This document shows positions 4,370-22,680 of a DNA stretch of 48,102 nucleotides, in pieces. The position numbers and the translations under genes were made by a program. The number at the start of each line of letters is the position of its first letter. Position 1 is the stretch's first letter. The notes below the pieces were generated by a model. The model saw only the letters and a program-made list of their open reading frames with translations. It ran no database searches and was not told the origin of the DNA. Origin of the DNA: Candidatus Pacearchaeota archaeon (GTDB lineage Archaea > Nanobdellota > Nanobdellia > Pacearchaeales > GW2011-AR1); NCBI GenBank assembly GCA_018304025.1, contig JAGVXA010000007.1, forward strand, positions 1-48,102. The letters are read 5' to 3'.

Positions 4370-4370
4370 A

Positions 4371-4652: not shown

Positions 4653-7183
4653 CACCAAAACAAATAGACGAGGACATAGTAGACGAAGAAGCAGAAATCG
4701 AAGAAAGAGAAAGAAGAGTAAAATCCCAGATTGGCTCAGAAGAAGGAGTCGAAGGCGCGGAAATCGTCGAGGAAATGGAAAAGAAATTCATCGACTACGC
4801 AATGTCTGTTATAGTAGACAGAGCACTTCCCTCAATTGAAGACGGATTAAAACCAGTCCACAGAAGAATTCTCTATGCAATGCATTCAATTGGACTGGAC
4901 TCTTCAAAGCCGACAAAAAAATCAGCAGCTGTCGTCGGTGAAGTGCTCGGAAAATATCATCCTCACGGAGACCTTTCTGTTTATAACGCGATGGTAAGAA
5001 TGGCGCAGGAATTTTCTTTAAGATATCCTTTAGTTTACGGGCAGGGAAACTTTGGTTCAATGGACGGCGACTCAGCAGCAGCAATGCGTTATACAGAGGC
5101 AAAATTATCCAAGATATCAAAAGAATTATTGGAAGACATTGAAAAAGAAACAGTGAAAATGAATCCTAATTTTGACAACTCCCAGAAAGAGCCCGAGACT
5201 CTTCCGGCAAAACTACCTAATCTTCTATTGAACGGCGCGACAGGTATTGCCGTCGGTATGGCAACAAATATTCCTCCGCACAACTTGACAGAAGTCTGCG
5301 ACGCAATTATCGCGTACATAAAAAAACCAGATATTACAATAAGCGAATTAACAGAAGTGATTACAGGCCCAGACTTCCCGACAGGCGGAACAATTTCAGG
5401 CTCCGGAATCAAGGAAATGTACGAGACAGGCAAAGGCAAGATAATTATGCGCGCAAAATCAAAAATCGAAGAATCAAAAGGAAAAGAAGCGATCATAATC
5501 ACGGAAATTCCTTACATGGTTAACAAGTCAGAGTTAGTAAAAGACATCGCTAAGCTCGCAACTGAAAAAAAACTTCCCGACGTTTCAGATTTAAGAGACG
5601 AATCTTCCAAGAAAGGAGTCAGAATAGTTATAGAGTTAAGAAAAGGGGCGACTTCAAAATATACTCTAAACAAGCTTTACAAGCTGACAAGACTGCAGAC
5701 TAATTTTGACGCGAATATCCTTGCCCTCGTCGGAAAAAAACCAAAAACTCTGAATCTAAAGCAGGTCTTGGAAGAATACGTAAACTACAGAAAAATAATT
5801 GTGACTAAGCGTTCTAAATTCGAGCTGAAAAAAGCCGAGGACAGGTTAGAAATTGTTCTTGGCTTGCTGATGGCCTTAAAGCAAATTGACGAGATAGTCA
5901 ACTTCATCAAGAAATCCGAGACAGCAAAAGAAGCCCACGAAGGTTTGATGAGCAAATTCAAATTCACAGACCGGCAGTCCAAGGCGATTCTTGAAACAAA
6001 ACTCCAGCAATTAACAAGCATGGAGTCGCAGAAATTAAAAGACGAAGAAAAGAAATTGAGAGAAACAATTCTGGAGCTTAAAAAAATTCTAAGCAGCGTC
6101 GAAGAAATATTGAGAGTTATCCGCGAAGAAGTTGCGCAAATCAAAAAAGATTACGGCGACGAGAGAAGAACAAAAGTTATCAAGAAAGTAGAAGAGTTGT
6201 CTGAAACAGACCTGATAGAAAAGAAAGAGGTTGTGGTAATGAGAACCGACGGCGGCTACATAAAAAGGATGGACATTAAGACTTACAAAGAGCAAAAGCG
6301 CGGCGGCTCCGGCGTCACAGGCACAGGGCTTAAAGACGAAGACTTCGTAAGGCAGTTAATAACTTGTTCAACTCACGACTATTTGCTGTTCTTCACCACA
6401 AGAGGAAGAGTTTACTGGCTAAAGGCAAACGACATTCCAGCAGCAGAAAGGCAGAGCAAGGGAAGAGCAATCGCAAATCTTTTGTCGCTAAGAGACGAAT
6501 CAATCGCAAACGTTCTGGCATTAAAAGATTTCGAGCAGGATTATTTTATGTTCGTGACTAAATTAGGAATCGTCAAAAAATTGCCTCTAAAAGATTTGTC
6601 AAAACCGCGGGCAACAGGAGTAAGAACAATCAATCTTCCTCTCGATAACTCCGACAATTTAATCAACGTGAAAAGAGTTTCAGACAAGCAGGAAGTTTTG
6701 TTAATCACAAAGAAAGGGCAGGCAATAAGATTCAACTCAAACGACGTGCGTTCAATGGGCCGCGCATCTTACGGAGTTAAAGGAATAGATTTGGCGAAAG
6801 GAGACGAAGTCGTTTCAATTGAAGCCCTTCCGTTAGATTTGAAAACAACAATCTTGACAGTAACATCAAAAGGATACGGAAAACGTTCTGAGTTAGACGC
6901 TTACAGAAAAACATCAAGAGCAGGAAAGGGAGTCATCAATTTGAAAGTCACAGACAAAACAGGAACAGTCGTGTCTTCCCGCTCAGTCAGCGACGCAGAT
7001 TCTATAATTATAACGACGATAAAAGGAATGGCTTTGCGCACAACAATGAAACAGCTGAGAGTCATGGGCAGGGCAACTCAAGGCGTAAGAATTGTAAAAT
7101 TAAAAGAAGGCGATAAAATCGCGGATATAGTCAAGATACCAACGAGCGAAGTTCAGATGAATCAGACAGAATTAGAAATCTAA
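4649..7183 (+). CDS. gyrA: DNA gyrase subunit A
   Basis: This is the DNA breakage-rejoining subunit. The catalytic Tyr is Tyr148 in [11 protein letters not shown]. The winged-helix part begins with [20 protein letters not shown]. The C-terminal beta-pinwheel carries a GyrA-box variant QKRGGSG (549-555; canonical QRRGGKG), which favours gyrase over topoisomerase IV. The 844 residues include an acidic N-terminal extension of about 30 residues before the conserved start. The ATG overlaps the preceding stop as ATGA. The 3' end overlaps the convergent gene at 7172 by 12 bp. Confidence 0.97.
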
Positions 7184-8032
7184 AATTAAAGTCCCTTCTG
7201 TCCTAACTCTTTCACAGCATAATCTTTCAATTCCTTCCCAGTCTTCAAATTTAATTTTCTTTGCAAAATCTCCATTCACATCGCCGTCTTGTCCAAATAA
7301 AATATGTTCAACACCGTCCGTGTAAATCACAGCAACATCTCTTGGTTTTTTCTCCCACATTCCCGTTCTAACATAACACATTGCATTTTCTTCACCAGTC
7401 AAAACTCCAAAAGAATATTCTTCAGATGGATTATTTCTAAACTCGCTTCTAATTATTCTTCTTGCTTCAGCATCTTTCCAAGTCAAGCCCTTCAATTTTT
7501 CACTTGCCCAAATATATTTATCTTTTGTAGAAGGCCCGTCGTTTTGAGTTCTATTTTTTAAATTTCCTTTCCAGTCAAACAAAGCAGCGCCAGAATCGCA
7601 GATGTAACCCCAAGAAACTATTTGCGGAAAAGGCTTGGCGATGCAAGCAGCAGTACATCCAGGAAAATCATTTACTAAGTAATCTGGTTTAGGAATATAC
7701 TTCTCTTGCCAGCTTTTTATTTCTTTATTTCCAAACCTAATGCTTTCTCTCATTGTTGCGTTATTCATTACATTATTTCTGCACATCTCTTCTACAAAAT
7801 TGACTGCAAAAATATCAGCAGCAATGGCAGCAGGACTTGGTTTTGGATAATACCGAAGAGCATTTAATGCACTCCTTAAATTTTTTTGAAGAGGCTCTCC
7901 ATTCTTGCAGTCTCTTGTAACGCCGTCAGCAACAGCAAAGACAGTTTCTGCAGAATTAACATGAAAAGAATCTTCATGCGGAAGCCTCAGCAAATCCATC
8001 TTCCAGTTTCTCGCTGTTATTACTTTGCTCAT
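7172..8032 (-). CDS. PP2C-like protein phosphatase
   Basis: The 286-residue protein shows the layout of metal-dependent PPM/PP2C Ser/Thr phosphatases: an acidic pair HED near residues 19-21, [11 protein letters not shown] (31-41), a central strand pair reading [12 protein letters not shown], and [12 protein letters not shown] late in the sequence, where the Asp would bind metal. The divergence is substantial, so substrate and even activity are uncertain. It is a single gene convergent with gyrA, overlapping its end by 12 bp, with a TATA-like TTTTAAATA upstream of the ATG at 8032. Confidence 0.65.
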
Positions 8033-8072
8033 AATAACTCTTGTTAAAACGCGCTATTTAAAATTTACTTAA

Positions 8073-8462
8073 TTACCAGTCATAATAATAATTTCTATAC
8101 GAAGAACCATAATATCCTCTGTTTCCATAACCACCATATCTGTAATTATTATAGTCAGGATATTCTCTCACAGTTTTAACATAATTCGTCGTCGTCTCCC
8201 AACCCCCATAGCCAACATATCTCGAACTTGTTAATTTGTCATAGTCAACGATTTTAGCGTAGCCGCTCCCATAACGCCCTCCGGATTCTCGTTCAGAATG
8301 ATAGCTGTATCTGTCGTAATAGTCATTATAACCTCTGTTATAATAATCTCCGTAACCTCTGTCGTAATAATTGTAAAGAGAACCATGCGCAGAAACTAAG
8401 TAAGACAAAAATAAAAGTAAAAAAATTCCAAGTGCTCCAATCGCAATTTGTTTTCGAATCAT
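8073..8462 (-). CDS. Secreted Tyr/Gly-rich protein
   Basis: The 129-residue product has a signal peptide (hydrophobic core GALGIFLLLFLSYLVSA, then AHG). A low-complexity mature part is rich in Tyr, Gly, Asp and Arg, with short units like YYDRGYGDYY, YYNRGYNDYY and YGGYGNRGYYG. No family is recognised. It is third in a same-strand group: one base separates it from the gene at 8464. Tyr/Gly-rich secreted proteins are often structural or adhesive, but nothing here proves that. Confidence 0.8.
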   Translation of the reverse strand: MIRKQIAIGALGIFLLLFLSYLVSAHGSLYNYYDRGYGDYYNRGYNDYYDRYSYHSERESGGRYGSGYAKIVDYDKLTSSRYVGYGGWETTTNYVKTVREYPDYNNYRYGGYGNRGYYGSSYRNYYYDW

Positions 8463-8463
8463 T

Positions 8464-8808
8464 TTACCACCCAGACATCTTCATATAAGAATTTCCTCTG
8501 TACCCATTATAATGGTTCTGCCTCTGATAAGCCATCTGGTTTGGATAAATCAAATAATCTCCGTAATTCATTGAATCATCACTCTTTCCGTAAACATCAG
8601 CGTAAGTTGTCGTTTGATAAAATTGAATTCTCTCCGCAGGCTTTTTGTAAGAAATCTCAATAATTTCAAGCCTCTCGCCGCAAGTGTAAAATTTAACATC
8701 TTCTCTTGAATTATATCTGTCGTAGCTAATCCGCGCAGAAGCAAATCCAGACATAACTAACAAGAAAAGAATTCCAGCCCCAAACAAAAACAATTTTTTA
8801 TCCATCAA
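8464..8808 (-). CDS. Secreted Tyr-rich protein
   Basis: The 114-residue product has an N-terminal signal peptide (MMDKKLFLFGAGILFLLVMS, then GFASA). The mature part begins RISYDRYNSREDVKFYTCGE and includes a single Cys. The C-terminus is Tyr/Gln/Asn-rich (YPNQMAYQRQNHYNGYRGN). It is less repetitive than its neighbours. It is the middle gene of three likely co-transcribed secreted-protein genes. Confidence 0.8.
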   Translation of the reverse strand: MMDKKLFLFGAGILFLLVMSGFASARISYDRYNSREDVKFYTCGERLEIIEISYKKPAERIQFYQTTTYADVYGKSDDSMNYGDYLIYPNQMAYQRQNHYNGYRGNSYMKMSGW

Positions 8809-8857
8809 TCTCTCAGTCTGAAGAATTATATAAAGATTTAGTTAGTCCGATATAATA

Positions 8858-9364
8858 CTAATATCTCCAGTTAAAATACCCTTTTTCAGAATCATAAACC
8901 GGCGCGTAATAATCATCCCCGTAATCTAAATTATTGTAAGCTGGCTTGTATCTCCAGTTTGTCGAAGTTGCGTCATCCTCTCCATCCCAACCGTACAATT
9001 CTCCCGTCGTGGAATAATAAGTTGCATATTTCCAGTCATTGTATTCTTCAGAAACATCTCTAATCGCTGTCCTCGCTTTCCTTCTGTACTGGCAGTCATC
9101 GTCACAGCCATAATGCCATCTTCCGCCGGAATAATATCTCGAATAATAATTCGGATATCTATAGTTGTACCTCGGATAATCGTAATACCCGTAATCTGAA
9201 TCTTGTCCTATTCGAACATACAAACCATAATCTCTCGGCTCGCAATCTCCGAAGTCATAGCAGTCGTCGTAATAAGTTCTGCGGGTCCAGTAAGCGTCAA
9301 CACTTCCCAAAAGTGAAACTATCAAAATTCCCGCGAATATTCCCAAGATTATTTTTTTCTCCAT
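8858..9364 (-). CDS. Secreted Tyr-rich protein with paired Cys
   Basis: The 168-residue product has a signal peptide (MEKKIILGIFAGILIVSLLG, then SVDA) followed by about 140 residues very rich in Tyr and Asp. Two Cys-containing spots (YDDCYDFGDCEPR and HYGCDDDCQYRR) suggest two disulfides or a metal site. Short RYYSGGR and YYDYPRYNYRYP units resemble the other two proteins. It is first in the three-gene group, with a TATA-like TTTAAAAATG upstream. The three probably arose by duplication and diverged. Confidence 0.8.
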   Translation of the reverse strand: MEKKIILGIFAGILIVSLLGSVDAYWTRRTYYDDCYDFGDCEPRDYGLYVRIGQDSDYGYYDYPRYNYRYPNYYSRYYSGGRWHYGCDDDCQYRRKARTAIRDVSEEYNDWKYATYYSTTGELYGWDGEDDATSTNWRYKPAYNNLDYGDDYYAPVYDSEKGYFNWRY

Positions 9365-9417
9365 GAAAAACCCACACCTGAAACATTTTTAAACCTATCT
9401 AACAAATCTACATTAGG

Positions 9418-9449
9418 CCCTAATTCGAAACTGAAATTTCGAAGTAGGG
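9418..9449 (+). repeat. Long imperfect hairpin upstream of tRNA-Asp
   Basis: CCCTAATTCGAAA (9418-9430) pairs with TTTCGAAGTAGGG (9437-9449) with one mismatch and a 6-base loop. It also repeats the first bases of the tRNA (GCCCTAATTCG at 9417-9427 against GCCCTAATCG at 9470-9479), as if a piece of tRNA 5' end had been copied here. Function unknown. Confidence 0.5.
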
Positions 9450-9469
9450 TGAATGAGCGTAGCGAATGA

Positions 9470-9540
9470 GCCCTAATCGTATAGTGGTTAGTACATGTCC
9501 CTGTCGCGGACAAGGCCCGAGTTCGATTCTCGGTTGGGGC
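9470..9540 (+). tRNA. tRNA-Asp (GTC)
   Basis: The acceptor stem GCCCTAA pairs with TTGGGGC at the 3' end (one T-G pair). The anticodon stem TGTCC/GGACA encloses loop CTGTCGC with anticodon GTC at 9503-9505. The T arm is CCGAG TTCGATT CTCGG. No intron and no encoded CCA. The 3' end is the insertion site of the mobile element that follows; its last 12 bases including GT recur at 21182. Confidence 0.96.
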
Positions 9541-9542
9541 GT
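9531..9542 (+). other. Left attachment site (tRNA 3' end core)
   Basis: CGGTTGGGGCGT covers the last ten bases of tRNA-Asp plus GT. The identical 12-mer occurs at 21182-21193, and shorter versions at 22160 and 22670. Use of a tRNA 3' end by a tyrosine recombinase is well known; assignment here is from repeat matching. Confidence 0.6.
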
Positions 9543-9607
9543 CCTTAGTTTCTTAGAACGTACGGACTTCGAGGTTTAATAGGTATCGACGCTGTCTAAG
9601 AATAAAG

Positions 9608-10813
9608 ATGGACATACACAACTACAAAAAAAGACTGGCGAGAACATTAGAGAATATAAAAAACTCTAAGATTTCAGCAAATAATAAGAAAGTTATTTTT
9701 AAGTTTCATGATAATTGTTTTACCGAAGGATTAAGCGTTTGTAAAATAGAAAGATATCTTTACGACTTGCAGAGATTTGCAGGCATGTTAAAAAAAGATT
9801 TGTTGAAGTCAAATAAGGACGATATAAAACAAGTTGTAGCGCAGATTGAAAAGAAAGAATGGAGCCCGCACTCTAAACATACTTTCAAGGTAATGATTAG
9901 AAAATTCTATAAGAGCATAGAAGGGCCGGAAGAAAAAGGAGTTTATCCGGAAAGAATCAGGTGGCTTCATTCTAATGTTAAGTACAGCAGTCTAAAACTT
10001 CCCGGCGAATTAATCACAGAGGACGATGTTCAAAAGATGATAACTTCTACTAATAATCTTAGAGATAGAGCACTTGTTGCTATCTTGTTTGAATCTGGCT
10101 GCAGAATAGGGGAGATAGGTAATTTGAAAATTAAGGATATTACTTTTGATGAATATGGAATGAAAATTAATGTTTCTGGAAAGACCGGAGGGAGAAGAGT
10201 AAGATTAGTCAATTCTGTTCCCTACTTGCAGGCGTGGATTAACATTCATCCTGAAAATCAAAATCCCGATAGTTACATATGGATAGGCAGAGATACCCGC
10301 GAGCTCTTGAATTATGCAACCTTCGCTTATATTCCCAAACATATGGCGGAGCTTGCAGGAATAAAAAAAAGAATACATCCGCATTTATTTAGGCACAGCA
10401 GAGCCACTGTCTTAGCTAAACATCTTACAGAAGCGCAGATGAAAGATTATCTCGGCTGGACTCAGTCTTCTAAAATGGCTGGAGTTTATGTTCACATGTC
10501 TGGGAGAGATACTGATGATGCAATTTTAAAATTAAACGGCGTTAAGATTGACGAAGATAAAAAAGAAGAATTGAAACTCAAACCGAAACCCTGTTTGAGA
10601 TGCAAAACAATTAATGAAGCGACAAATAAGTTTTGTAAATTGTGCGGCTTAATTTTAAATCAAGAAGAAGCTGATAGAATTATTAGCGATGATTTGAAAC
10701 GCAAGAATATCGACGGAGTTATGGAGAGAATTGTCGATGATCCTGATTTTCGTCGTCTTCTGGCGGAAAAATTAAACGGGAAGGTTTACCTTCCTCACGA
10801 TTCGCAATGTTAG
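9608..10813 (+). CDS. Tyrosine recombinase (integrase) with zinc ribbon
   Basis: Phage/Xer-type site-specific recombinase of 401 residues. An N-terminal SAM-like core-binding domain (about 1-125) is followed by the catalytic domain: Arg166 (SGCRIGE), Lys192 (GKTGG), HLFRH with His259 and Arg262, Trp284 (LGW) and the nucleophile Tyr294 (AGVYVHMS). The C-terminus adds a zinc ribbon, Cys329-x2-Cys332 and Cys343-x2-Cys346, a feature of many archaeal integrases. It directly follows tRNA-Asp, and the gene is intact, not split by integration as in SSV1-type viruses. A TATA-like TTTAATAGG lies about 30 bp before the ATG. Confidence 0.93.
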   Translation: MDIHNYKKRLARTLENIKNSKISANNKKVIFKFHDNCFTEGLSVCKIERYLYDLQRFAGMLKKDLLKSNKDDIKQVVAQIEKKEWSPHSKHTFKVMIRKFYKSIEGPEEKGVYPERIRWLHSNVKYSSLKLPGELITEDDVQKMITSTNNLRDRALVAILFESGCRIGEIGNLKIKDITFDEYGMKINVSGKTGGRRVRLVNSVPYLQAWINIHPENQNPDSYIWIGRDTRELLNYATFAYIPKHMAELAGIKKRIHPHLFRHSRATVLAKHLTEAQMKDYLGWTQSSKMAGVYVHMSGRDTDDAILKLNGVKIDEDKKEELKLKPKPCLRCKTINEATNKFCKLCGLILNQEEADRIISDDLKRKNIDGVMERIVDDPDFRRLLAEKLNGKVYLPHDSQC

Positions 10814-11309: not shown

Positions 11310-11520
11310 TAAGTCTCGATTTGGCCTTTACAATCTGGCCTTAGAGAGAATAGACGAGTGCCAAACATCAACGGGGGGAATAGCTAGTTTTCCGGATGTC
11401 TTTGAAAAAATTTGTCGTTCATTCTCGATAAAGAAAAAAGAAGCGTGGGAGCTTCTTTTTATGCTTCGTGATTTTGGCATGATTGAAATTGTGCCATTCA
11501 AGGGAGTGATTGTAAAATGA
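11287..11520 (+). CDS. Winged-helix-like small protein
   Basis: Product of 77 residues, apparently a single helix-turn-helix/winged domain: helices around IASFPDVFEKICRSFSIKKK and EAWELLFMLRDFGMIEI, then a short strand. Overlaps the RepA-like gene by four bases (ATGA), with CAGGAG upstream. Inferred DNA-binding partner or regulator for the replication gene. Confidence 0.65.
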   Translation: MKKEILTNKSRFGLYNLALERIDECQTSTGGIASFPDVFEKICRSFSIKKKEAWELLFMLRDFGMIEIVPFKGVIVK

Positions 11521-12860
11521 TTGCTGTTCTTGAAAACGAAGTCGAAGAGTTAATTAAAGAATATCCTGGAGCAGAAAAGGTAATTAGACGAGAAATTGAA
11601 GGGTGGCAGAGGTATTATATTACATCTCCTTTTCAGGAAAAAGAAAAAAAGATCTTCCTTCAATGCATCAAAAAACTTGTCACGTTTATCAATCAAGATT
11701 ACAAAGAAGATAAGGAGATTAAGGAAACAAAAAAGAAGAAAAGGGATTTAGATATAGTTTATGACTCTGAGTTAAATAGTTTGGAGATTAATCAAGTCGA
11801 ATGGATCATCGAGGGAATTATCCCTGAAAAATCAATTAGTTTTTTAGCTGGGAAGAGGGGAGTTTTCAAAAGTTTTATCTCTTTACTGATTAGCTATTGC
11901 GTTAGTAACGGCTTGGCTGTTTTTAATAAGTTTCCTTCTAAAAAATCAAAAATTTTATATTTGGACGAAGAAAATGGCCTCCCGCTAATCAAAGGAAGAG
12001 CAGACAAAATAAAAAACGGTCTAGACATTCAAAATAATTCTGATGTAGCCTACTCTTCTTTTGCTGGACTTAAGTTTGATTCTCCTTCTTCGATGACTGC
12101 TCTTGAGAAAGTCATACAGGAATTTAAGCCTAAGATTGTAATTGTTGATAGCTATAGAAGATTTGTAGGATTTGATGAAAACGACGCGGGAAAAGTTTCA
12201 AGTTTGTTTACGGACATTCTAAGGCCACTATCGGAAAAATATGGTGTAAGTTGGATTTTAGTTCATCATCTAAGAAAAGGGATGGCTGGGAGAAATCCCA
12301 TTGACGATATGGACGAGATACGAGGAAGTTCTGATTTGGCAAACTATGCCGATACGATTTTAATTGTACAAAGAAACAGGGGAGCAGAGAATAACTTTAT
12401 CCTTAAACAAGCAAAGTGCAGATATAAACAAGAGATGGCTCCTAAGGCAATAAACATTGATTGGGGAGAGGATATCTTGACAATGGACTGTGTAGGAGAT
12501 GCAGAAGAGAATATCTATGCAGTTGAAGTATGCGCTAACATGATAATGAAATGGGCTGCAGAAACTGAGAAGACATCCTTTAATAGAATGGAGGCTTTAG
12601 ATGCTATGAAATCGCAGAAACAATCTAAGCCGACAGTTGAGAGAGCTTTAAGGATGTTGTTAGACAATCAAAAACTAATAAAACCAAAAAGGGGAATCTA
12701 CGAGCTTAATCCGGATTACAAGAAAGAAGAAAAGAAAGCATCAGAGCCTCAAAAACCTCTTGATGCTTTTGAAGCTAAAGAAGATAAGACATCAGAAGCA
12801 TCTAATTATAATATAGAGGTTATCAAGATTGATGGAACGGATTTTGTAAAAGTAACATAA
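11517..12860 (+). CDS. RepA-like RecA-fold ATPase (AAA_25 type)
   Basis: Product of 447 residues. The ATPase core runs about 97-330: a divergent Walker A AGKRGVFKSF (111-120, Lys118-Ser119), LYLDEEN (147-153) and Walker B IVIVDS (207-212), then LVHHLRKGMAG and a sensor-like region RGSSDLANYADTILIV. This matches hexameric RepA/DnaB-like helicases found in plasmids and phages. The C-terminal 100 residues look like a winged helix (SFNRMEALDAMKSQKQSKPT) with a charged tail. It is probably the element's replication helicase. The phenylalanine in GVFKS replaces the usual Gly, as in some phage AAA_25 proteins. Confidence 0.8.
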   Translation: MIAVLENEVEELIKEYPGAEKVIRREIEGWQRYYITSPFQEKEKKIFLQCIKKLVTFINQDYKEDKEIKETKKKKRDLDIVYDSELNSLEINQVEWIIEGIIPEKSISFLAGKRGVFKSFISLLISYCVSNGLAVFNKFPSKKSKILYLDEENGLPLIKGRADKIKNGLDIQNNSDVAYSSFAGLKFDSPSSMTALEKVIQEFKPKIVIVDSYRRFVGFDENDAGKVSSLFTDILRPLSEKYGVSWILVHHLRKGMAGRNPIDDMDEIRGSSDLANYADTILIVQRNRGAENNFILKQAKCRYKQEMAPKAINIDWGEDILTMDCVGDAEENIYAVEVCANMIMKWAAETEKTSFNRMEALDAMKSQKQSKPTVERALRMLLDNQKLIKPKRGIYELNPDYKKEEKKASEPQKPLDAFEAKEDKTSEASNYNIEVIKIDGTDFVKVT

Positions 12861-13951: not shown

Positions 13952-13959
13952 TTTAAATA
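13952..13959 (+). promoter_or_regulatory. TATA box of the defence operon
   Basis: TTTAAATA is centred about 25 bp before the ATG at 13981, which predicts a transcript beginning at that ATG. Confidence 0.55.
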
Positions 13960-13980: not shown

Positions 13981-14052
13981 ATGAAAACAATAAGTAGAAA
14001 TATAATATCTTGTCCGTTGTATTATAGAATCGTCGTTGGAGGCGCTGATTAA
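13981..14052 (+). CDS. Possible 23-residue leader peptide
   Basis: This ORF begins MKTISRNIISCPLYY and ends VVGGAD. Its ATG lies where transcription should start, 25 bp after a TATA box. Its last codons contain GGAGG (14038-14042), and its stop is one base before the ATG of the zinc-ribbon gene at 14054. Translating this ORF would bring ribosomes to that start, so it could control expression of the whole restriction-like operon. There is no direct evidence that it is translated. Confidence 0.45.
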   Translation: MKTISRNIISCPLYYRIVVGGAD

Positions 14053-14053
14053 C

Positions 14054-15034
14054 ATGTCTCTTTTTTCTTCTAGTGAAAATCGAGTAAAGTGTGGAAAATG
14101 CGGAACAGAATTTGATTTAAATAAAAATCAAGATAGCTGCCCTCTTTGTGGATTTGGCCGTTCTCAGCCAATCGATATTCTTTCTAACAAAGAATTTCAA
14201 CAGGAAGAATCCAGCCACGAGAAAGATTTATTATCAATACCTCCACAGCTCAAACTCTCTAAAGGAAATATAAACGCTGGTGGCGGGCGTAATAAGATAG
14301 GGTCATGGGGAATGTTTAATGACTATTTCTCAGGAAAATTTCTACTCAGAATAAATGCCAACCTTATGCATGAAAAGAAAGTTGAATTTGTTTCGTTGCA
14401 TGAACTAATCGAAAACGCTAAAGTAATAATCTCTAAGCGCGGTCTAAAAAAAATGAAAGGATTTCCTAACGACATTAAAACCGAGTCTTCAGTTAACAGG
14501 CTAGTCAACCATTTTTTAGTTGAGTTCTACAATATGGGATTATTTGATGTACAATCAAAAAGTCCAATAAAAAAGAAGAGCATCTGGAATGAATCTTGGG
14601 AAAATATTCTAGTCAGACCAACAAGCGAGGGACTTGAGTTCGCAAAATTAAAAAACAAAATATTCGACGAGAAGGCAGCGCCTATAAAAGACAACCAAAT
14701 TTTAACGAACGAAGAAAGACAATGGCTTATCAATTATTTAAAGAATATAGAGAAATATAATTTCAAAGAGTATAGTTTGCTAAAAGAAATCGCTTCGTTT
14801 ATCCAAAAAGGCAATAATGGAAATAACGATTTGCGGGAATGGTTCAAGAAGAATCCAATATTTGTGTCTTATGTTAAAGAATGGAGTTCAAAGTCTGACG
14901 ACGACAAGGAATTTGAAAAACAGTTGTCAAATCTTTCACAAACATACGGCAGCGGAAAGATATCTCTTTTGCGGGAGCTGGGCGTTATAAGCAATAAAAG
15001 AAACGATTATAAGGTGATAGGGGAATTGAAATGA
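14054..15034 (+). CDS. Zinc-ribbon protein, first gene of defence operon
   Basis: Product of 326 residues. The N-terminus is a zinc ribbon, CGKCGTEFD...CPLCGFG (two Cys pairs within residues 13-33), followed by a linker and a helical, probably winged-helix region (KTESSVNRLVNHFLVEFYNM and TSEGLEFAKLKNK). No catalytic motif is recognised. The start is ATG 14054, with GGAGG 11 nt upstream; a TTG at 14036 is less likely. The gene ends in an ATGA overlap with the 66-residue gene. It could be a DNA-recognition or adaptor subunit for the GHKL ATPase downstream; this is inferred from operon position. Confidence 0.7.
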   Translation: MSLFSSSENRVKCGKCGTEFDLNKNQDSCPLCGFGRSQPIDILSNKEFQQEESSHEKDLLSIPPQLKLSKGNINAGGGRNKIGSWGMFNDYFSGKFLLRINANLMHEKKVEFVSLHELIENAKVIISKRGLKKMKGFPNDIKTESSVNRLVNHFLVEFYNMGLFDVQSKSPIKKKSIWNESWENILVRPTSEGLEFAKLKNKIFDEKAAPIKDNQILTNEERQWLINYLKNIEKYNFKEYSLLKEIASFIQKGNNGNNDLREWFKKNPIFVSYVKEWSSKSDDDKEFEKQLSNLSQTYGSGKISLLRELGVISNKRNDYKVIGELK

Positions 15035-15231
15035 AAACCTTAAAACTCCAAAAAGAAAAAATCTCTGTTAATAGAGAATTAATAAAAAAATTTGGAGAAG
15101 CAGTGTACTTCTGCCCCGAAGTTGAATCAGTGAATATTGAAATTAAATTCAAGGATGGCAGCAATATTGGGTTTAATCGAGAAGAAATGGAAGATAGATT
15201 TCATAAAATCGTCGAGGAGGATGAAGAATGA
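15031..15231 (+). CDS. 66-residue protein of defence operon
   Basis: Small acidic protein (ends KIVEEDEE) with a beta-looking middle (VESVNIEIKFKDGSNIGFN). No family recognised. It overlaps the genes on both sides by four bases, so it is translationally coupled between the zinc-ribbon protein and the GHKL ATPase. Fixed stoichiometry or a small chaperone/inhibitor role are guesses. Confidence 0.65.
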   Translation: MKTLKLQKEKISVNRELIKKFGEAVYFCPEVESVNIEIKFKDGSNIGFNREEMEDRFHKIVEEDEE

Positions 15232-17693
15232 ATGAAGAATCAATAAACGAAGATTATGTAACAACGCCACAGAATGATAGAGAACAAATAAACCAAATTG
15301 CTAGAGAGTATGAGGGCGAACCTGCTAAAGGCTTAGCTCATGGGTTGCAAAAAGACGCAATACAAAATGGAATTGGAGCCAGAATCTCGGAGAACGAAAT
15401 AGATTCTTATAAAAATTGGTCTTTCCATTTCAAACTTTTTAAAATAGGAGATAAATATGCGCTATCATTTTGGGATGCGGGGACAACTGGTCTCACAGGA
15501 AGTATACTCTCAGTGGGGGAAATATCTCGTTGGTCAGCTGAAAGCAAGCTGAAAGCCAACCAACGTCTTAGTAGATTCCTAACAAGATTTGATTCAGGTG
15601 GCAACTCCGGACCAGGAAGTTTTGGTAGAGGCAAATTAATTTTTCATGCTGCATCGAATGATTCGGCAATACTTTGTGATACCTTAAGATATGATGATAA
15701 AAAATATTTGGCATTTGAAAGAAAATTAAGAGGCCATGCCTTAACGCAAAGTCAAATGCCCTTCGAGGGAAAAGAGGCATTAGAACTTATAGTTCGTGTT
15801 ACACAGGAGGCTCTAGAACCCCTTAAAGTTCCAGGAACGAGGATTACAATTCTTGATTTAAGAGAGGAAATTACAAACGCAATTAAAAATTCGTTTGATG
15901 AGGATCATCCAGAAGTTATGAATGATTTTTCTCAATCTTTTGCAAAAATGATTGAAGAAACTTGGTGGGAGATTTTAGATAAGTTCAACGCTAAAATATA
16001 TATTGAGTTTGACGGAAAAACAAAGCAGGTAACATTAGGTGAACCATTAAAGTCTATAGCATGTATGGACGATAAAAAAAATGGCTGGAAAGTATACAGA
16101 AAAACACACGTTCCAGTGGTCGTTCAAGATACTACGTATTACATTAAAGAGATCAAGCTTATCCTTTCTCCAACCCCCCTGGATGAGAATATAAGAAGTA
16201 TTTGGGTGCAAAGGAAGAAGATGAAAATAGGCGACGTTAAGGGCGCGATGCCCCACCATACTATCTTTAAGCAAGTTGCAGGTTATGTCCTTTTGGAAAA
16301 AGAACTTGAAGATGAGATAGAAAAAAGCGAGAATCCAACCCATTATAGTTTTAATTTTCATCATCGCGCCCCAAATCAAATAAAGCAAACAATCAATAAC
16401 CACTTGCAGCAGTTTCAAGAAGCTCTTGGTATTAGAACAGTTAGTGATGAAAAGCAAGCTCAGCAGGACATGCAGGAAATAATGAAAGAGATCAATCCAT
16501 TAGCTCAAAAACTTGGTCTTGTAACTGGATTATTCCAAGGTCCAGAGCAGGATAAAGTCGAGCTAATTATAAAATCTTTCAAATTACCCCAGATTAATTC
16601 AAAACGAGTAGATTTTGAAGATAAAATTGGTCCAATAATCTACAAAATAAAAAATAATACTAATAGAAAACAAAAATTAGAATTTTTCTTGGCATTAGAG
16701 CAAAAAAAGAAAAAGGACCTTGTTCAAGAAGTTCATAATCAAACTATTACTTTAGAAGCTCATTCGTATGAGGAGATAGAATGCAAAGCATTCAAAATAG
16801 AAAATGATGAATTTGAGAGCCCAAGTTCGATAAAGATTATAGCAAAAGTCAACCAAAAAGATTCTGGAGAAAAATTATGTCAGGCATCTAGAACCTTATG
16901 GCTGGGCATGGAAGAACCGCCAACCACTAAAGAATTGTTTACTTTAGTCGCATACAAACCACTTTTTCCACGCGGGAAATCCACACGAGTTGAACTCAAT
17001 GAAGCAATAAATAATATGCGATTTAAAATTTCAAATAAAACCCCTGTTGATGTCAAGATTAATTTTGATCTTTTAGCAAAAAAATCAAGTGATCAAACCA
17101 TTATCAAAGAAATTAGATCTGAAAAAGACATTTTGCTTCAGGCTATGAGCGATTTTGAAATTGGAGTGGGGGCTTTACAAATAGTTGGTGAAAAGTTTAA
17201 GGCTGTAAATGATAGTCCGGCTAATCCTCAAGAAAGAAAATGCGAGATATATTTCAGTGCTAGACTTGCAGAAAATGTCCCTCAATTGAATAAGATCAAA
17301 TCAGAGTACCTCGGCAAGAAAAAAATAGAATTTTTTGTTGGCATAGACCCGGAAGGAGAATCTATTTTTAAAGAGACACTTTTTGAACCTGATCCTTTAG
17401 ATGGTAAACGTGCAAGGTATACTGGAGATAGAGCTACCGGATTCACACTTAGAATAAACAGTGACCATCCATCATATAATTTTGCGATTATTCAGACAAC
17501 CGAAGTAAAAAAGGAATACTTTAAAGAACAAATGTTGCAGCAAGCTTATGCATTGGCTGTAGCTGAAGGAGAATTTTCAGGACTCAGTGAAGAATTTCAG
17601 CAAATTTTAATAAGCGAAGACCTTGCTCCTGCAGATGCATTTCTGAAGATTCAAGAGTTAGTTGGTAAAGCATATATCGAGATGGGGGAATAA
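15228..17693 (+). CDS. GHKL ATPase (MutL/MORC/Hsp90-like) of R-M type module
   Basis: Product of 821 residues. The first ~200 residues carry the GHKL ATP-binding motifs: N-box GLQKDAIQN (Asp43, Asn47), WDAGTTGLTG (82-91) for the DxGxG loop, and the lid SGGNSGPGSFGRGK (123-136). A transducer-like region follows (about 200-400), and the C-terminal half is beta-rich with repeated strand-loop units. The absence of HisKA, TOPRIM or MutL endonuclease motifs, and the neighbours, place it with the MutL/MORC-like ATPases found in restriction-modification loci. It likely dimerises on ATP and clamps DNA to direct the Vsr-like nuclease. The ATPase fold is firm; the role is inferred. Confidence 0.82.
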   Translation: MNEESINEDYVTTPQNDREQINQIAREYEGEPAKGLAHGLQKDAIQNGIGARISENEIDSYKNWSFHFKLFKIGDKYALSFWDAGTTGLTGSILSVGEISRWSAESKLKANQRLSRFLTRFDSGGNSGPGSFGRGKLIFHAASNDSAILCDTLRYDDKKYLAFERKLRGHALTQSQMPFEGKEALELIVRVTQEALEPLKVPGTRITILDLREEITNAIKNSFDEDHPEVMNDFSQSFAKMIEETWWEILDKFNAKIYIEFDGKTKQVTLGEPLKSIACMDDKKNGWKVYRKTHVPVVVQDTTYYIKEIKLILSPTPLDENIRSIWVQRKKMKIGDVKGAMPHHTIFKQVAGYVLLEKELEDEIEKSENPTHYSFNFHHRAPNQIKQTINNHLQQFQEALGIRTVSDEKQAQQDMQEIMKEINPLAQKLGLVTGLFQGPEQDKVELIIKSFKLPQINSKRVDFEDKIGPIIYKIKNNTNRKQKLEFFLALEQKKKKDLVQEVHNQTITLEAHSYEEIECKAFKIENDEFESPSSIKIIAKVNQKDSGEKLCQASRTLWLGMEEPPTTKELFTLVAYKPLFPRGKSTRVELNEAINNMRFKISNKTPVDVKINFDLLAKKSSDQTIIKEIRSEKDILLQAMSDFEIGVGALQIVGEKFKAVNDSPANPQERKCEIYFSARLAENVPQLNKIKSEYLGKKKIEFFVGIDPEGESIFKETLFEPDPLDGKRARYTGDRATGFTLRINSDHPSYNFAIIQTTEVKKEYFKEQMLQQAYALAVAEGEFSGLSEEFQQILISEDLAPADAFLKIQELVGKAYIEMGE

Positions 17694-17694
17694 A

Positions 17695-18456
17695 ATGGCA
17701 ATTGTAGTGGAAATAAGCAAAAAAGGGACTCCCGTATTTAAATCAGCCAAGGGCTTTGATATTTCATCCGAAGAAATAGAAAAAGCAACAGTGTTGGACG
17801 AACTAGTAAAAAAAGAAATAATTCAGCTTAGCGGGAGATTAAAGAATTCTAAAGAAAAAAATCTTTCTTCTATGAAAGATAAATCCCCAACGTATTGGGA
17901 ATTTGGTTCAGTTATAAGGAAGATCTACGAGTCTAAGGTTGATCCTTCTGAAAAAACATTATTCTGGAAAACTATAGAATTACGCGCACCGAAAGAACTT
18001 TTAGCCAAAAACCGCGGGCCAAATCGCATTCACGTCGAATATTGTTTCAGACTTGCAGGGTATCCAAAAAAAGAAGCTTCCAAAATGAAATGGAGCGAAT
18101 GGGTTTATGTATTTGATAGTCCTGCGATAAATCGAGAAACGCGTTTTGATAAGTGGTTTAAACTAAAAATGCAAGATGAATCCGAACTCCTAAAGCGGAA
18201 AAATGTCCGTCTATTTGTCCAATGCTTAAATACTATGCTTGGTGGAGCTGAAACGGCAGATTTAAGTGATGATGAGCTTTATCGTTGCTATAATGCTGCT
18301 TGGGAAGTATCAAAAAGAATCATAGAAAAGAATATGGATAAAAATAAAATAAAAGAAAATTTGGAAAATCTTATGAAGAACAGGAATGATGTTGGAGAAT
18401 TAATCATGGAATCAATATCCGTAAAAGACTTTGTAAAAAGAACAGTTAAAAATTAG
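17695..18456 (+). CDS. Unknown 253-residue protein between GHKL and Vsr genes
   Basis: No family is recognised. It is mostly helical and basic, with one conserved-looking stretch containing KSPTYWEFGSVIRKIYESK and another around NRIHVEYCFRLAGYPKK. The start is ATG 17695, one base after the GHKL stop and preceded by a GGGGGAAT ribosome site; the longer frame from 17662 would overlap the ATPase gene. Its place between an ATPase and an endonuclease suggests a recognition or regulatory subunit. A divergent nuclease cannot be excluded. Confidence 0.7.
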   Translation: MAIVVEISKKGTPVFKSAKGFDISSEEIEKATVLDELVKKEIIQLSGRLKNSKEKNLSSMKDKSPTYWEFGSVIRKIYESKVDPSEKTLFWKTIELRAPKELLAKNRGPNRIHVEYCFRLAGYPKKEASKMKWSEWVYVFDSPAINRETRFDKWFKLKMQDESELLKRKNVRLFVQCLNTMLGGAETADLSDDELYRCYNAAWEVSKRIIEKNMDKNKIKENLENLMKNRNDVGELIMESISVKDFVKRTVKN

Positions 18457-18458
18457 CC

Positions 18459-18806
18459 ATGGACAACCTCACCCAAAATCAAAGAAGCTTTTGTATGTCA
18501 AAGATAAGAAGCAAGAACACAAAGCCCGAAAGATTTTTTAAGAAAAAATTCAAGGGATTTGCTTATCATCCTAAAAATCTTTTTGGAAATCCAGACTTCA
18601 TAAACTATAAAAAGAAAGTTATTGTTTTTGTTGATGGCTGCTTCTGGCACAAATGCCCTTATCATTTTGTAGAACCAAAAGCAAATAAAAAATATTGGTT
18701 GCCAAAAATAGAAAAAAATGTTTCAAGAGATAAGGAAATTACTTTAGCATATAAGAATTCCGGTTGGAAAGTTGTAAGATTCTGGGAGCACCAATTAGTT
18801 TTATAA
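18459..18806 (+). CDS. vsr: Vsr-fold endonuclease
   Basis: Very-short-patch-repair family endonuclease of 115 residues. The signature IRSKNTKPE (16-24), GNPDF with catalytic Asp46, VDGCFWHKCP (58-67) and PKIEKNVSRD (82-91) are all present. The zinc ligand Cys in the usual C-terminal WECAL is replaced by His (WEHQL, 109-113), which may still bind zinc. The classical enzyme nicks at T:G mismatches made by deamination of 5-methylcytosine. Here it is the last gene of the GHKL operon and convergent (6-bp overlap) with a cytosine methyltransferase, so it may be the cleaving subunit of a restriction system. Confidence 0.9.
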   Translation: MDNLTQNQRSFCMSKIRSKNTKPERFFKKKFKGFAYHPKNLFGNPDFINYKKKVIVFVDGCFWHKCPYHFVEPKANKKYWLPKIEKNVSRDKEITLAYKNSGWKVVRFWEHQLVL

Positions 18807-19745
18807 AACTCTTTTTATCTCTTTTGCTATTCGTTTTACAACTGGTACAGTCACGCTGTTTCCAGCTTGATGATAAAGCCAGTTGTCTGAGATATCCGGC
18901 AATTTAAAACTTTTAGGAAATCCTTGCAATAAAAAACACTCGCGCGGAGTAAGTTTCCTTATACCTCTTCCATTCTTTATTATGGGAACATTGTGACCCC
19001 CAAGGCCCATATTCGCGGTTAATGTCGGAACAACTCCTTTTTTGTTTGATCGTACATATCTTCTTCTCCATTGATAAGTAGTATTTTCTGAATTTACATC
19101 TTTTTTTATCCTCTCAAACAAAGGTTTATTGTTATAATAATATTTATCTTCTGCTTCAGCAGCAGTGAAGTTTTTAAAAGATTTTTTTAACGGAATTTCT
19201 TTTGGAAACTTGAAAGCTTCTGCCTTTTTCTCGTCTAAAAATCCAACAATAAATATTCTTTCTCGATGTTGTGGAATATTCCCGTGAGTCATACTGTTTA
19301 GAACTTCAGTTTTTATGTAATAACCAAGGCTTGTCAGTACCTCCTCAATAATCTTAAAGGTGTTTCCGTCGTCATGACTTTTTAAATTTTTAACATTCTC
19401 CAGAAAAACTATTTGAGGTTTCTTCTCTTTTAAAATTTTCACTATTCTAAAAAAAAGTTTGCCACGCCCCTTTGTATCGCTATATCCTTTGCGATAACCT
19501 GCAATGCTGAATGGTTGACAGGGAAACCCGGCTGTGAGCACATCAAAGTTTGGTAAACTTTTTATTTCTAAGTTCAGGATATTTTCAGGACTTAGTTTGA
19601 CATCCTCAAAATTCAGATCGTAGGTGCTCTTGCAACTTTTATCAAAGTCATTCGCAAACACTGTTTTGAACCCTGCTTTTTCAAAACCAAGTCTTATCCC
19701 ACCTACGCCCGCAAATAAATCTGCAACTTTCCACTCTTTTAACAT
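18801..19745 (-). CDS. C5-cytosine DNA methyltransferase (Dcm family)
   Basis: Product of 314 residues with the full order of C5-MTase motifs: I DLFAGVGGIRLGF (9-21), IV GFPCQPFS with catalytic Cys76, VI ENV (116-118), VIII QHRERIFIVG, and X QAGNSVTVP near the end. The target-recognition region (roughly 190-260) is short, so the site is probably short. A RBS-like GAGGT and a TATA-like TTTATAAAT lie upstream of the ATG. The gene faces the Vsr gene and follows a winged-helix gene on the same strand. It is the presumed protective methylase of the module. Confidence 0.95.
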   Translation of the reverse strand: MLKEWKVADLFAGVGGIRLGFEKAGFKTVFANDFDKSCKSTYDLNFEDVKLSPENILNLEIKSLPNFDVLTAGFPCQPFSIAGYRKGYSDTKGRGKLFFRIVKILKEKKPQIVFLENVKNLKSHDDGNTFKIIEEVLTSLGYYIKTEVLNSMTHGNIPQHRERIFIVGFLDEKKAEAFKFPKEIPLKKSFKNFTAAEAEDKYYYNNKPLFERIKKDVNSENTTYQWRRRYVRSNKKGVVPTLTANMGLGGHNVPIIKNGRGIRKLTPRECFLLQGFPKSFKLPDISDNWLYHQAGNSVTVPVVKRIAKEIKRVL

Positions 19746-19821: not shown

Positions 19822-20052
19822 TTAGCTTCGAGAAAAATCTTTAAGCAGCGAAAACAATCTCTCCCTCTTATTTGTCTTCTTGCCTTCGCGTTCTTTTACT
19901 AAATTAATCTTCTTCATAAAATCTAAAGCCTTAATTGTCGTTTCCCATTGCGACTCTACTTCTTCGGAAATTCTTTTAACAGACATTTCTTTTTCTTTTC
20001 TTAGAACTTTAAGAATATCTTCAATCACCTCAAGAATATTTCTTCTTCCCAT
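19822..20052 (-). CDS. Winged-helix transcription regulator
   Basis: Product of 76 residues consisting of one wHTH domain: NILEVIEDILKVLRKEKEMS, then VKRISEEVESQWETTIKALD (turn and recognition helix) and a basic wing EREGKKTNKRERLF. It lies upstream of the methyltransferase on the same strand, with a 76-bp gap that holds the methylase promoter. A controller of methylase or operon timing is plausible, like C proteins of R-M systems, though the fold differs. Confidence 0.75.
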   Translation of the reverse strand: MGRRNILEVIEDILKVLRKEKEMSVKRISEEVESQWETTIKALDFMKKINLVKEREGKKTNKRERLFSLLKDFSRS

Positions 20053-21181: not shown

Positions 21182-21193
21182 CGGTTGGGGCGT
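21182..21193 (+). other. Internal att-like copy of tRNA-Asp end
   Basis: CGGTTGGGGCGT is identical to 9531-9542 across the tRNA 3' end. The bases after it differ. It is the best-matching right end for the segment carrying the integrase and defence module (about 11.7 kb). Confidence 0.55.
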
Positions 21194-21195
21194 TA

Positions 21196-21279
21196 ATCTA
21201 AGATATTCCCTAGTGAATAAATCATCTAAGATATTCCCTAGTGAATAAATCATCTAAGATATTCCCTAGTGAATAAATC
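21196..21279 (+). repeat. 28-bp tandem repeat, three perfect copies
   Basis: Three identical head-to-tail units of 28 bp begin at 21196, 21224 and 21252, each starting ATCTAAGATATTCCCTAGTG. They follow the att-like site at 21182 directly and end about 30 bp before the ATG at 21309, so they sit in the promoter region of that gene. They look like iterons or multiple protein-binding sites. No spacers, so not CRISPR. Confidence 0.85.
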
Positions 21280-21308
21280 TTTAAATATATAAAATTCATA
21301 CACACTTT

Positions 21309-22064
21309 ATGACGATTGAAAGTATCACTGGAAAAGATCTTGGAGAAGTTCTTCAAACAATCAATCCTAATAGTATGTCCCACTCCGATGAGATCGTTGC
21401 ACAGAGTTTAGTTGATGCCTCAATGGCCGGGAATAGTTTTATTACAGCAGATTATGCATTATGGACAAAGGGAACTGAAGAAGATGGGAGGTTTTATGAG
21501 GGCAGCGCATTATGTTTTTTAGCAAGAAGAGAAGGTAATCCGTTGCTTATGCTTCCAAACGGATTTGAGTTTAATCCATTTACTATAAGAGGGATAAAAA
21601 AAGCCCCCGGGACTATATGCTTTGAATCCAGTTGTTTGCATGGGTTTGATGATGATGGTGAAGTATTAAGAACGGTTTATATACCGGAAGGTTGGAGAAA
21701 AAAGCTAAATCCAATTGAACTCATGATTGCTCAAAGAGCCTTTGGAAATATGGTTTTGGAAGATGATGGAGACAGCACTTATTTTGATACTTCTTGGGAG
21801 GGTGGCGACGAAAACGGATATGGCCAAACAGCAAGAAGGACAAGAAATAACGTGCCGAGCCCGTTTGAAGAATTTTTAAATCGGCTTGCTCCCTCACCCC
21901 ATCTTAAGATATTAACGTATACCCCTGATTATATCGAAGGAAAATTAGATGAAAAAGGTTCATTTGGAACATTCTGTAGCCTGATCCTTAGGGAACACGA
22001 GGCAGTATTTAGCGTTATACCTTCAACTGGCGGACATTATGTTAGGGCAGAAAAGAGAGGATAA
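21309..22064 (+). CDS. Unknown 251-residue protein
   Basis: No family recognised. Soluble, acidic, with four Cys including CFESSCLHGFDDDGE and a segment FNPFTIRGIKKAPGTICFES. A TATA-like TTTAAATATA lies about 25 bp before the ATG, immediately after the 28-bp repeats. It occupies the second att-bounded segment (21194-22168) alone, so may be cargo or a remnant. Confidence 0.7.
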   Translation: MTIESITGKDLGEVLQTINPNSMSHSDEIVAQSLVDASMAGNSFITADYALWTKGTEEDGRFYEGSALCFLARREGNPLLMLPNGFEFNPFTIRGIKKAPGTICFESSCLHGFDDDGEVLRTVYIPEGWRKKLNPIELMIAQRAFGNMVLEDDGDSTYFDTSWEGGDENGYGQTARRTRNNVPSPFEEFLNRLAPSPHLKILTYTPDYIEGKLDEKGSFGTFCSLILREHEAVFSVIPSTGGHYVRAEKRG

Positions 22065-22159
22065 ATTATTCTTTTAGGTTATTGATTTTTTCACGAAGTG
22101 AAATCCAAAAATAGTTTTGAAAGCCAGCTGAAAAATTTTTCTAAAATTTTTCGCTTCGT

Positions 22160-22168
22160 GGTTGGGGC
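22160..22168 (+). other. Internal att-like remnant
   Basis: GGTTGGGGC matches the last nine tRNA bases. It is preceded by a 10-bp hairpin (GAAAAATTTT/AAAATTTTTC). Weaker than the 21182 copy. Confidence 0.4.
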
Positions 22169-22215
22169 ATCTTTATCATACAAATCTTTAAAAAAAAGAC
22201 TAACATAAAAATTTC

Positions 22216-22596
22216 ATGACAGAATTTGGATATCCGCCGACATATGGTGAAGTTAAGGAAGCTGAATTAAAACAGGGTAGAAGTAAAATATCGAAAGCTT
22301 CAGAAAAAGGCACATTAGTCTCTTTGTTAGGTTCTTTTGTGTCGCTCGCATGTTCATCAGCAACTATGTTTTATCCTTACATTTCGACTGGAAAAGAGCC
22401 AGAGAATTATAACTATGTAATAGCTGGAGCATTAATCGGTTTTGGAGGAGTAATAATTTCAAATATATTGGGTGAGAACGTGACAGATAAAAGATTAAAG
22501 AAATTGGAAGAAGAAGATTCTATTGTTAAAAGAGTAAGGGATGCAGAAAGAAAAGTTTATACCGGACCAATCCATATAAATCACGATATTTATTAA
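22216..22596 (+). CDS. Small membrane protein, two TM segments
   Basis: Product of 126 residues with two hydrophobic stretches (about 33-55 and 68-88) between a charged N-terminus and a charged C-terminal helix (NVTDKRLKKLEEEDSIVKRV). No family recognised. It lies alone between att-like copies at 22160 and 22670. Confidence 0.7.
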   Translation: MTEFGYPPTYGEVKEAELKQGRSKISKASEKGTLVSLLGSFVSLACSSATMFYPYISTGKEPENYNYVIAGALIGFGGVIISNILGENVTDKRLKKLEEEDSIVKRVRDAERKVYTGPIHINHDIY

Positions 22597-22669
22597 ATAG
22601 CAATCCTGCGTAATTATAAGAATAGTTTTTTGATCCGTACAACTTTTTCTCTAAAAAAGTCGTACTCGT

Positions 22670-22680
22670 GGTTGGGGCGT
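22670..22680 (+). other. Probable outer right attachment site
   Basis: GGTTGGGGCGT, 11 bases matching tRNA-Asp 3' end, is followed by TTCCT (tRNA: CCTTA). A hairpin (GTACAACTTTTT/AAAAAAGTCGTAC, one mismatch) precedes it. Genes to its right look like host genes. Confidence 0.5.

Follow-up and report, generated by a model that had tools for sequence, protein, structure and literature searches.

A recurrent GHKL ATPase core beside a C5-methyltransferase and Vsr, probably a mobile defence island, in a Candidatus Pacearchaeota archaeon

What does a GHKL ATPase do when its gene is packed against those of a Vsr endonuclease and a cytosine DNA methyltransferase? The question is raised by a gene island in a 48,102-nucleotide (nt) stretch of Candidatus Pacearchaeota contig JAGVXA010000007.1, referred to below as the window. 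A first-pass annotation, made from the letters alone, had read the island as a mobile module for ATP-dependent restriction of DNA lacking 5-methylcytosine (5mC), with Vsr as the cutter. Our analysis leads to a related reading, to which we give a probability of roughly 60%: the island would be a mobile, ATP-dependent, restriction–modification (R-M)-like defence, in which a complex built around the GHKL protein acts on DNA without the self mark. The island is probably a defence system of a loosely known type, directed against viruses or plasmids.

The island encodes a zinc-ribbon/winged-helix-like protein (ZnR), a product of 66 amino acids (aa), the GHKL ATPase, a 253-aa protein, Vsr and a C5-cytosine DNA methyltransferase (C5-MTase). 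All six open reading frames (ORFs) were found where the first-pass annotation had placed five packed plus-strand genes converging on a methyltransferase (Table 1). From ZnR through the 66-aa ORF, GHKL and the 253-aa gene to Vsr, the junctions are a 4-nt overlap, a 4-nt overlap, a 1-nt gap and a 2-nt gap, and Vsr overlaps the intact C5-MTase gene tail to tail by 6 nt; given this tight spacing and these overlaps, the coupling of the genes is real. An alternative TTG start at 14036 would lengthen ZnR to 332 aa. The leader peptide of the first-pass annotation exists as a 23-codon ORF (MKTISRNIISCPLYYRIVVGGAD), and a TATA-like box (TTTAAATA) lies about 25 nt upstream of its ATG; the leader is probably the first ORF of the transcript and the leaderless archaeal start of the operon. 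A scan for bacterial promoters and terminators found no excess. The GHKL, 253-aa, 66-aa and ZnR proteins gave nothing above cut-off in Pfam, NCBIfam or PADLOC, and the 66-aa ORF, with no counterpart in the homologous loci, is private to the window.

The ATP-binding motifs first read in the GHKL protein are borne out by its relatives. Six homologues, spread over several phyla, show no change at any residue of the N-box (D43/N47, with Asp for the usual Glu), G1 (D83-x-G85) or G2 (G128-x-G130...G133); the motifs are therefore not chance, and the protein carries the ATP-binding signature of the GHKL superfamily. The MORC signature GhXhhpXXRhl, a motif of the S5 domain, had no match in any of the six homologues. 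Each has a single ExxxH (E368-x3-H372), invariant in 6/6; one such motif arises in 2.7% of column shuffles, and in paraMORC2 an ExxxH towards the C-terminal end of S5 is described as strongly conserved (PMC2292703). On these motifs, "paraMORC2-like" is the most fitting name for the window GHKL protein. Its low-confidence structure model (mean predicted local distance difference test score, pLDDT, 47) suggests a GHKL and S5-like transducer module (about residues 10-400), two beta-sandwich stretches and a helical C-terminus; Foldseek matched this model to Hsp90/HtpG (E about 1e-6), to MORC3/MORC4 ATPase modules (E about 1e-5) and to Ig-like sandwiches. Sequence searches of the PDB with the protein and its profile returned chance matches only, and the profile gave no alignment with the gyrase B of the window. 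The C-terminal PD-(D/E)XK nuclease that marks paraMORC3/Shedu was not found, and neither DUF4263 nor PADLOC matched the protein. A hidden PD-(D/E)XK nuclease was rejected: no such motif is conserved among the homologues.

We searched 371 genomes of the same phylum for the GHKL protein and then scanned about 85,000 genomes. The full-length protein occurs in 3 of the 371, the window's genome included; the two homologues are 58-59% identical to it, and the homologous loci of this phylum belong to Nanoarchaeota and Woesearchaeota, in keeping with the DPANN-like host proposed at first. Bacterial homologues came from WOR-3 (45% identity), from Nitrospirae, where the gene is split (51%), and from Nitrospinota, where it is truncated (55%); in these three phyla the family is rare (1/147, 1/246 and 1/77 genomes). 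Searches of plasmids, phages and viral contigs with the GHKL and 253-aa proteins found no relatives. The 253-aa family was detected in 3/318 archaeal genomes, exactly those holding GHKL, and the two genes are adjacent in all loci with an intact GHKL gene (the window and its Nanoarchaeota, Woesearchaeota and WOR-3 counterparts) and in the split Nitrospirae locus. ZnR homologues 47-49% identical to the window's stand in two archaeal loci; the ZnR-like protein of WOR-3 shares 24% identity and has no zinc ribbon. In 6/6 loci (the window and five others) the core has a C5-MTase gene as its neighbour, so that the linkage of GHKL to a C5-MTase and to conserved partners is upheld; neighbourhoods mostly without Vsr and Dcm, which would have counted against the first-pass annotation, are not what the gene-order search returned, since it found Dcm throughout. 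As judged from these neighbourhoods, the core is GHKL plus a helical protein of about 255 aa, usually with ZnR and always with a C5-MTase. A scattered, rare distribution in archaea and bacteria, together with an integrase-bearing element around the island (described below), fits a mobile defence module.

Several loci carry features of their own. In the Nitrospirae genome (G421), a metagenome-assembled genome (MAG), the two GHKL halves lie on separate contigs (C38:42631-44196 and C46:54127-55092); the two loci look like a single island flanked by addB and addA and split by rearrangement or population inversion or by an assembly fault. At 8416-10125 of the Woesearchaeota locus, a 569-aa protein of no known family, with a nuclease-like DxD...LFQLKWQ motif, is encoded between Vsr and the core. 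At 5956-6726 of the decayed Nitrospinota locus, a NOV_C (PF13020) protein beside Dcm may be an alternative nuclease partner.

The role of Vsr is best judged from what takes its place. The window protein is a genuine family member: its TIGR00632 score is 117.7 bits, above the cut-off of 97.85, and it matches PF03852 (E=6.9e-20) and E. coli Vsr (1CW0, E=3.7e-14), and has invariant D46, C61, H64 and C66, including the catalytic Asp and the CFWH motif (C61-F-W-H64) on which its first identification had relied. In the WOR-3 and Nitrospirae loci, an HhH-GPD protein occupies the Vsr position; the WOR-3 copy has as its best PDB match the G-T mismatch enzyme Mig (1KEA, E=1.2e-45), ahead of MutY, and the two copies are 49% identical to each other. 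Vsr and Mig-like enzymes share one job, the removal of the T of a T:G pair after 5mC deamination.

A search with the ZnR family added a fourth archaeal genome (G111), which has a ZnR homologue (35% identity, E=1e-67) and no member of the window's GHKL family. This ZnR gene overlaps by 4 nt the gene of a 737-aa protein with the motifs ERITN, DRGIG and GQYGQG, which in turn converges on an N6/N4 methyltransferase gene (PF01555, E=5.5e-21); neither Vsr nor a recognised nuclease was found near the pair. Homology of the 737-aa protein to the window GHKL was rejected, the motifs agreeing in order only, and we treat it as a different family because no sequence relation was detectable; it had no match in the defence library. 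The pair, at 5022-9329 of the extracted locus (L055, G111:C10:18000-36000), has genes for a zinc-ribbon tyrosine integrase and a D5-type primase nearby and reads as a minimal sister system.

A repair gene is expected where 5mC is made and absent where it is not; a cutter is not bound in this way. Because a Mig-like enzyme replaces Vsr and because Vsr is absent beside the N6/N4 methyltransferase, Vsr appears to follow 5mC like a repair gene. The absence is seen at one locus (G111), and the swap argument for a repair gene and not a cutter is good but not closed. The first-pass model, a GHKL complex that senses DNA without 5mC and has Vsr cut it, gains from Vsr being the sole recognisable nuclease of the island. 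The Vsr gene also runs in the same direction as the GHKL operon and follows the 253-aa gene by 2 nt. In addition, Vsr-like proteins can damage cells without their cognate 5mC, as Caulobacter VsrA does by triggering the SOS response when ScmA is missing (PMC12907096), and the GHKL protein MutL binds and stimulates Vsr (PMC6116569). Against this model stand the T:G glycosylase in Vsr's stead at two loci, the N6/N4 methyltransferase locus without Vsr, and the Nanoarchaeota locus, where Vsr and Dcm lie on the strand opposite to the core. Thus, we regard a cutting Vsr as quite unlikely and this part of the first-pass annotation as probably wrong; Vsr is the only candidate for a cognate restriction endonuclease recognised in the island, and the replacement pattern argues for a V gene.

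The recurrence of V genes also bears on a reading outside defence, in which the island would serve genome maintenance and the GHKL protein would act, in the manner of MutL, as matchmaker to the V enzyme, Vsr or Mig, in the repair of 5mC deamination at methyltransferase sites. All five loci with both core genes have a V gene and a C5-MTase, and the direct stimulation of Vsr by MutL (PMC6116569) provides a precedent. However, a specific matchmaker would hardly be expected to serve two unrelated V enzymes with one unchanged core, and ZnR is found as well with a GHKL-motif protein beside an N6/N4 methyltransferase, a setting in which 5mC does not arise. This function is, in our judgement, very unlikely.

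An AlphaFold model of the 253-aa partner protein is all-helical (pLDDT 79.5), and a fold search with it in PDB and viral libraries gave nothing below E=0.2. Its family shares an invariant stretch, RxxxRxHxxYCFRL...WSEWV, that has no known counterpart, and R107-x5-H113 is likewise invariant. Two identities were rejected: a HEPN/DUF3644 RNase (no HEPN fold match; DUF3644 in 1/5 members, below cut-off) and YhcG/DUF1016-N (prompted by the pattern YWxxG...WSEW; profile probability 0.1%). ZnR is inferred to be a DNA-binding protein.

A conserved nuclease motif was found in none of the GHKL, 253-aa and ZnR families, and the WOR-3 and N6/N4-methyltransferase loci have no recognised restriction nuclease near the core. 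These results would suit immunity without a nuclease, in which ZnR and the 253-aa protein guide a MORC-like GHKL protein to DNA lacking the self methyl mark, and the ATP-driven clamp compacts or silences that DNA as eukaryotic MORCs do, so that it is blocked and not cut. The resemblance of the predicted GHKL fold to MORC3/MORC4 ATPase modules points the same way, but the structure model behind it is weak. Moreover, extra nuclease-like genes do lie beside the core (the NOV_C protein in Nitrospinota and the 569-aa protein in Woesearchaeota), and the 253-aa protein, being without a known fold, could itself be a new nuclease. We consider an exclusively clamping system unlikely, and place it next after the R-M-like reading.

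Under the preferred R-M-like reading, the C5-MTase would mark self DNA, as its family suggests. It matches PF00145 over its full length (E=6.5e-86), with the PCQ and ENV motifs of the family, and it also matches M.HhaI (1SVU, E=5.6e-58). Vsr, or the Mig-like enzyme in its place, would repair T:G mismatches arising from 5mC deamination and would be dispensable for the disabling step. The GHKL protein would act as a paraMORC-like dimerising ATPase clamp, in complex with its obligate 253-aa partner and with ZnR as the DNA-binding protein; this complex may engage DNA without the self mark and block or destroy it in an ATP-dependent manner. Candidates for the disabling step are a hidden nuclease, within either the 253-aa protein or the C-terminal part of GHKL, a nuclease recruited from elsewhere, or a non-nucleolytic clamp. 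We favour this explanation because it accounts for the patterns of core, V gene and methyltransferase, and because GHKL proteins of this kind have been placed in R-M neighbourhoods (PMC2292703) and VcSduA provides ATPase-dependent defence (PMC12137116).

Several results weigh against this reading. The missing nuclease motif is one, and the poor GHKL model is another. The related loci number only six, all from MAGs. The methyltransferases of the other loci form one group, 46-78% identical to the Nanoarchaeota copy; that of the window is about 30% identical to all of them and 54% identical to bacterial phage methyltransferases. Since it differs so much from the others, a tight match between core and methyltransferase recognition site is not obvious; the explanation would be either that the exact methylated motif does not matter to the core or that the exchangeable parts set specificity.

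Mobility of the island, claimed in the first-pass annotation, is supported by its surroundings. A tyrosine integrase gene lies beside a tRNA-Asp gene, and the tRNA 3' end is duplicated: the putative attachment (att) core CGGTTGGGGCGT recurs exactly on the far side of the island, against a chance expectation of 0.04 matches with up to 1 mismatch in the shuffled window. Because of this tRNA-Asp, integrase, RepA-like ATPase and recurring tRNA 3' end, the island is probably cargo of a putative 11.65-kb integrated element. A same-genus genome holds an integrase 44% identical to that of the window. The sister genomes yielded no empty integration site, since the genus does not conserve the gene on the right flank. 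A third att-like copy (TGGTTGGGGCGT, 22669-22680), which has one mismatch, hints at another small unit (21182-22680) adjoining the element; it would carry a 126-aa ORF and one of 251 aa that lacks conservation within the genus. Immediately after the putative attR, a 28-nt unit (ATCTAAGATATTCCCTAGTGAATAAATC) is repeated three times in tandem (21196-21290). In a sister genome of the same genus (G008), tRNA-Asp and a 43-nt partial copy of its 3' end lie about 3.1 kb apart (C95:2202-2244, 5335-5406), a sign that tRNA-Asp may be an integration hotspot. Upstream of the tRNA-Asp site, this archaeal contig carries adjoining gyrB and gyrA genes for DNA gyrase (2465-7183).

Table 1. Features of the window around the island, and related loci in other genomes.
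Feature or locus	Position or source	Strand	Description
tRNA-Asp(GTC)	9470-9541	+	ARAGORN; presumed integration target
Putative attL core	9531-9542	+	Terminal 11 nt of the tRNA and one further base; exact copy at 21182-21193
Tyrosine integrase	9608-10813	+	401 aa; C-terminal zinc ribbon; PF00589 E=2.7e-23
RepA-like AAA_25 ATPase	11517-12860	+	447 aa; PF13481 E=9.8e-27; putative replication role
TATA-like box	13952-13959	+	Read from sequence; predicted function
Leader ORF	13981-14052	+	23 codons
ZnR	14054-15034	+	326 aa; CxxC...CxxC; homologues elsewhere
66-aa ORF	15031-15231	+	No family match
GHKL ATPase	15228-17693	+	821 aa; motifs invariant among homologues
253-aa all-helical protein	17695-18456	+	AlphaFold model; co-occurs with GHKL
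Vsr endonuclease	18459-18806	+	115 aa; TIGR00632 above cut-off
C5-MTase	18801-19745	-	314 aa; PF00145; all hallmark motifs
Winged-helix protein	19822-20052	-	76 aa; PF14947 E=1e-4, below its cut-off; possible regulator
Putative attR core	21182-21193	+	Exact repeat of attL core
L008	Nanoarchaeota, JAGLMD010000111		ZnR, GHKL, 259 aa; Vsr and Dcm on other strand
L009	Woesearchaeota, JAAOYA010000008		Dcm, Vsr, 569-aa protein, 259 aa, GHKL, ZnR
L012	WOR-3		HhH-GPD, Dcm, 90 aa, ZnR-like, GHKL, 274 aa
L014	Nitrospirae		GHKL N-terminal half downstream of addB-like gene
L020	Nitrospirae, same genome as L014		GHKL C-terminal half, 261 aa, HhH-GPD, Dcm, Fic, addA-like gene
L015	Nitrospinota		Truncated GHKL, NOV_C nuclease domain, Dcm; decayed locus

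A compact set of two or three core genes and a methyltransferase, with no nuclease recognised, could be used to test cutting against clamping by such ATPases, a question that also underlies MORC silencing in eukaryotes. The natural exchanges, of Vsr for Mig and of a C5-MTase for an N6/N4 methyltransferase lacking Vsr, provide a simple means of telling repair genes from effectors in other systems linked to Dcm and Vsr. If the nuclease-free reading were true, the island would offer a prokaryotic parallel to silencing by MORCs, with methyltransferase type, V gene and even GHKL family exchangeable around a constant DNA-binding subunit.

Among known systems, the E. coli Dcm-Vsr and methyltransferase-Mig pairs likewise join a C5-MTase to a gene for T:G removal, and both V types occur, in different hosts, beside the core described here; to our knowledge, these pairs have no linked GHKL/ZnR/253-aa core. 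The coupling of GHKL proteins to R-M genes, called an established theme in the first-pass annotation, is indeed so: Iyer, Abhiman and Aravind described MORC and paraMORC GHKL proteins in R-M neighbourhoods with Dcm and Vsr in 2008, and proposed for them DNA looping between recognition and cleavage sites (PMC2292703). HEPN-fused paraMORCs in R-M loci are also known (PMC3710099). Like paraMORC families 1-5, the window protein has an N-terminal GHKL domain, a putative S5-like module and a C-terminal extension, and its setting is likewise patchy and mobile, with cytosine methyltransferases and Vsr (PMC2292703). The window family shares the invariant ExxxH with paraMORC2 and, unlike MORCs, lacks their signature motif. 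A superfamily II (SFII) helicase is present in about 70% of MORC loci (PMC2292703), whereas the module genes of the window and of its Nanoarchaeota, Woesearchaeota and WOR-3 counterparts have none among them or next to them. The HEF_HK/Response_reg_2 loci (Bellieny-Rabelo 2021, PMC8011034) also combine a GHKL protein and an adjacent partner with a C5-MTase, often with Vsr downstream; by contrast, the window GHKL and 253-aa proteins have no Pfam match above cut-off, and the partner is predicted to be all-helical. VcSduA (Shedu type I-D), a GHKL-nuclease paraMORC3 and proven anti-phage protein, shares the GHKL ATPase, whose activity its defence requires, but has a PD-(D/E)XK domain of its own (PMC12137116), and none is conserved in the window GHKL. 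Beyond VcSduA, the literature searched yielded no experimental study of prokaryotic MORC relatives in R-M neighbourhoods. Neither that literature nor the defence library contained the recurrent GHKL/253-aa/ZnR core with its V-gene and methyltransferase swaps. The claim that the composition was undescribed thus holds in part, the theme dating from 2008 and the core with its two partner families apparently being without any model. Unlike described paraMORC loci, the system has ZnR and 253-aa partners and an Ig-like C-terminal part that no model covers, and it occurs both in DPANN archaea and in candidate phyla of bacteria. What appears new is the recurrent GHKL/253-aa/ZnR core and its swaps, set within the known theme of GHKL with Dcm and Vsr.

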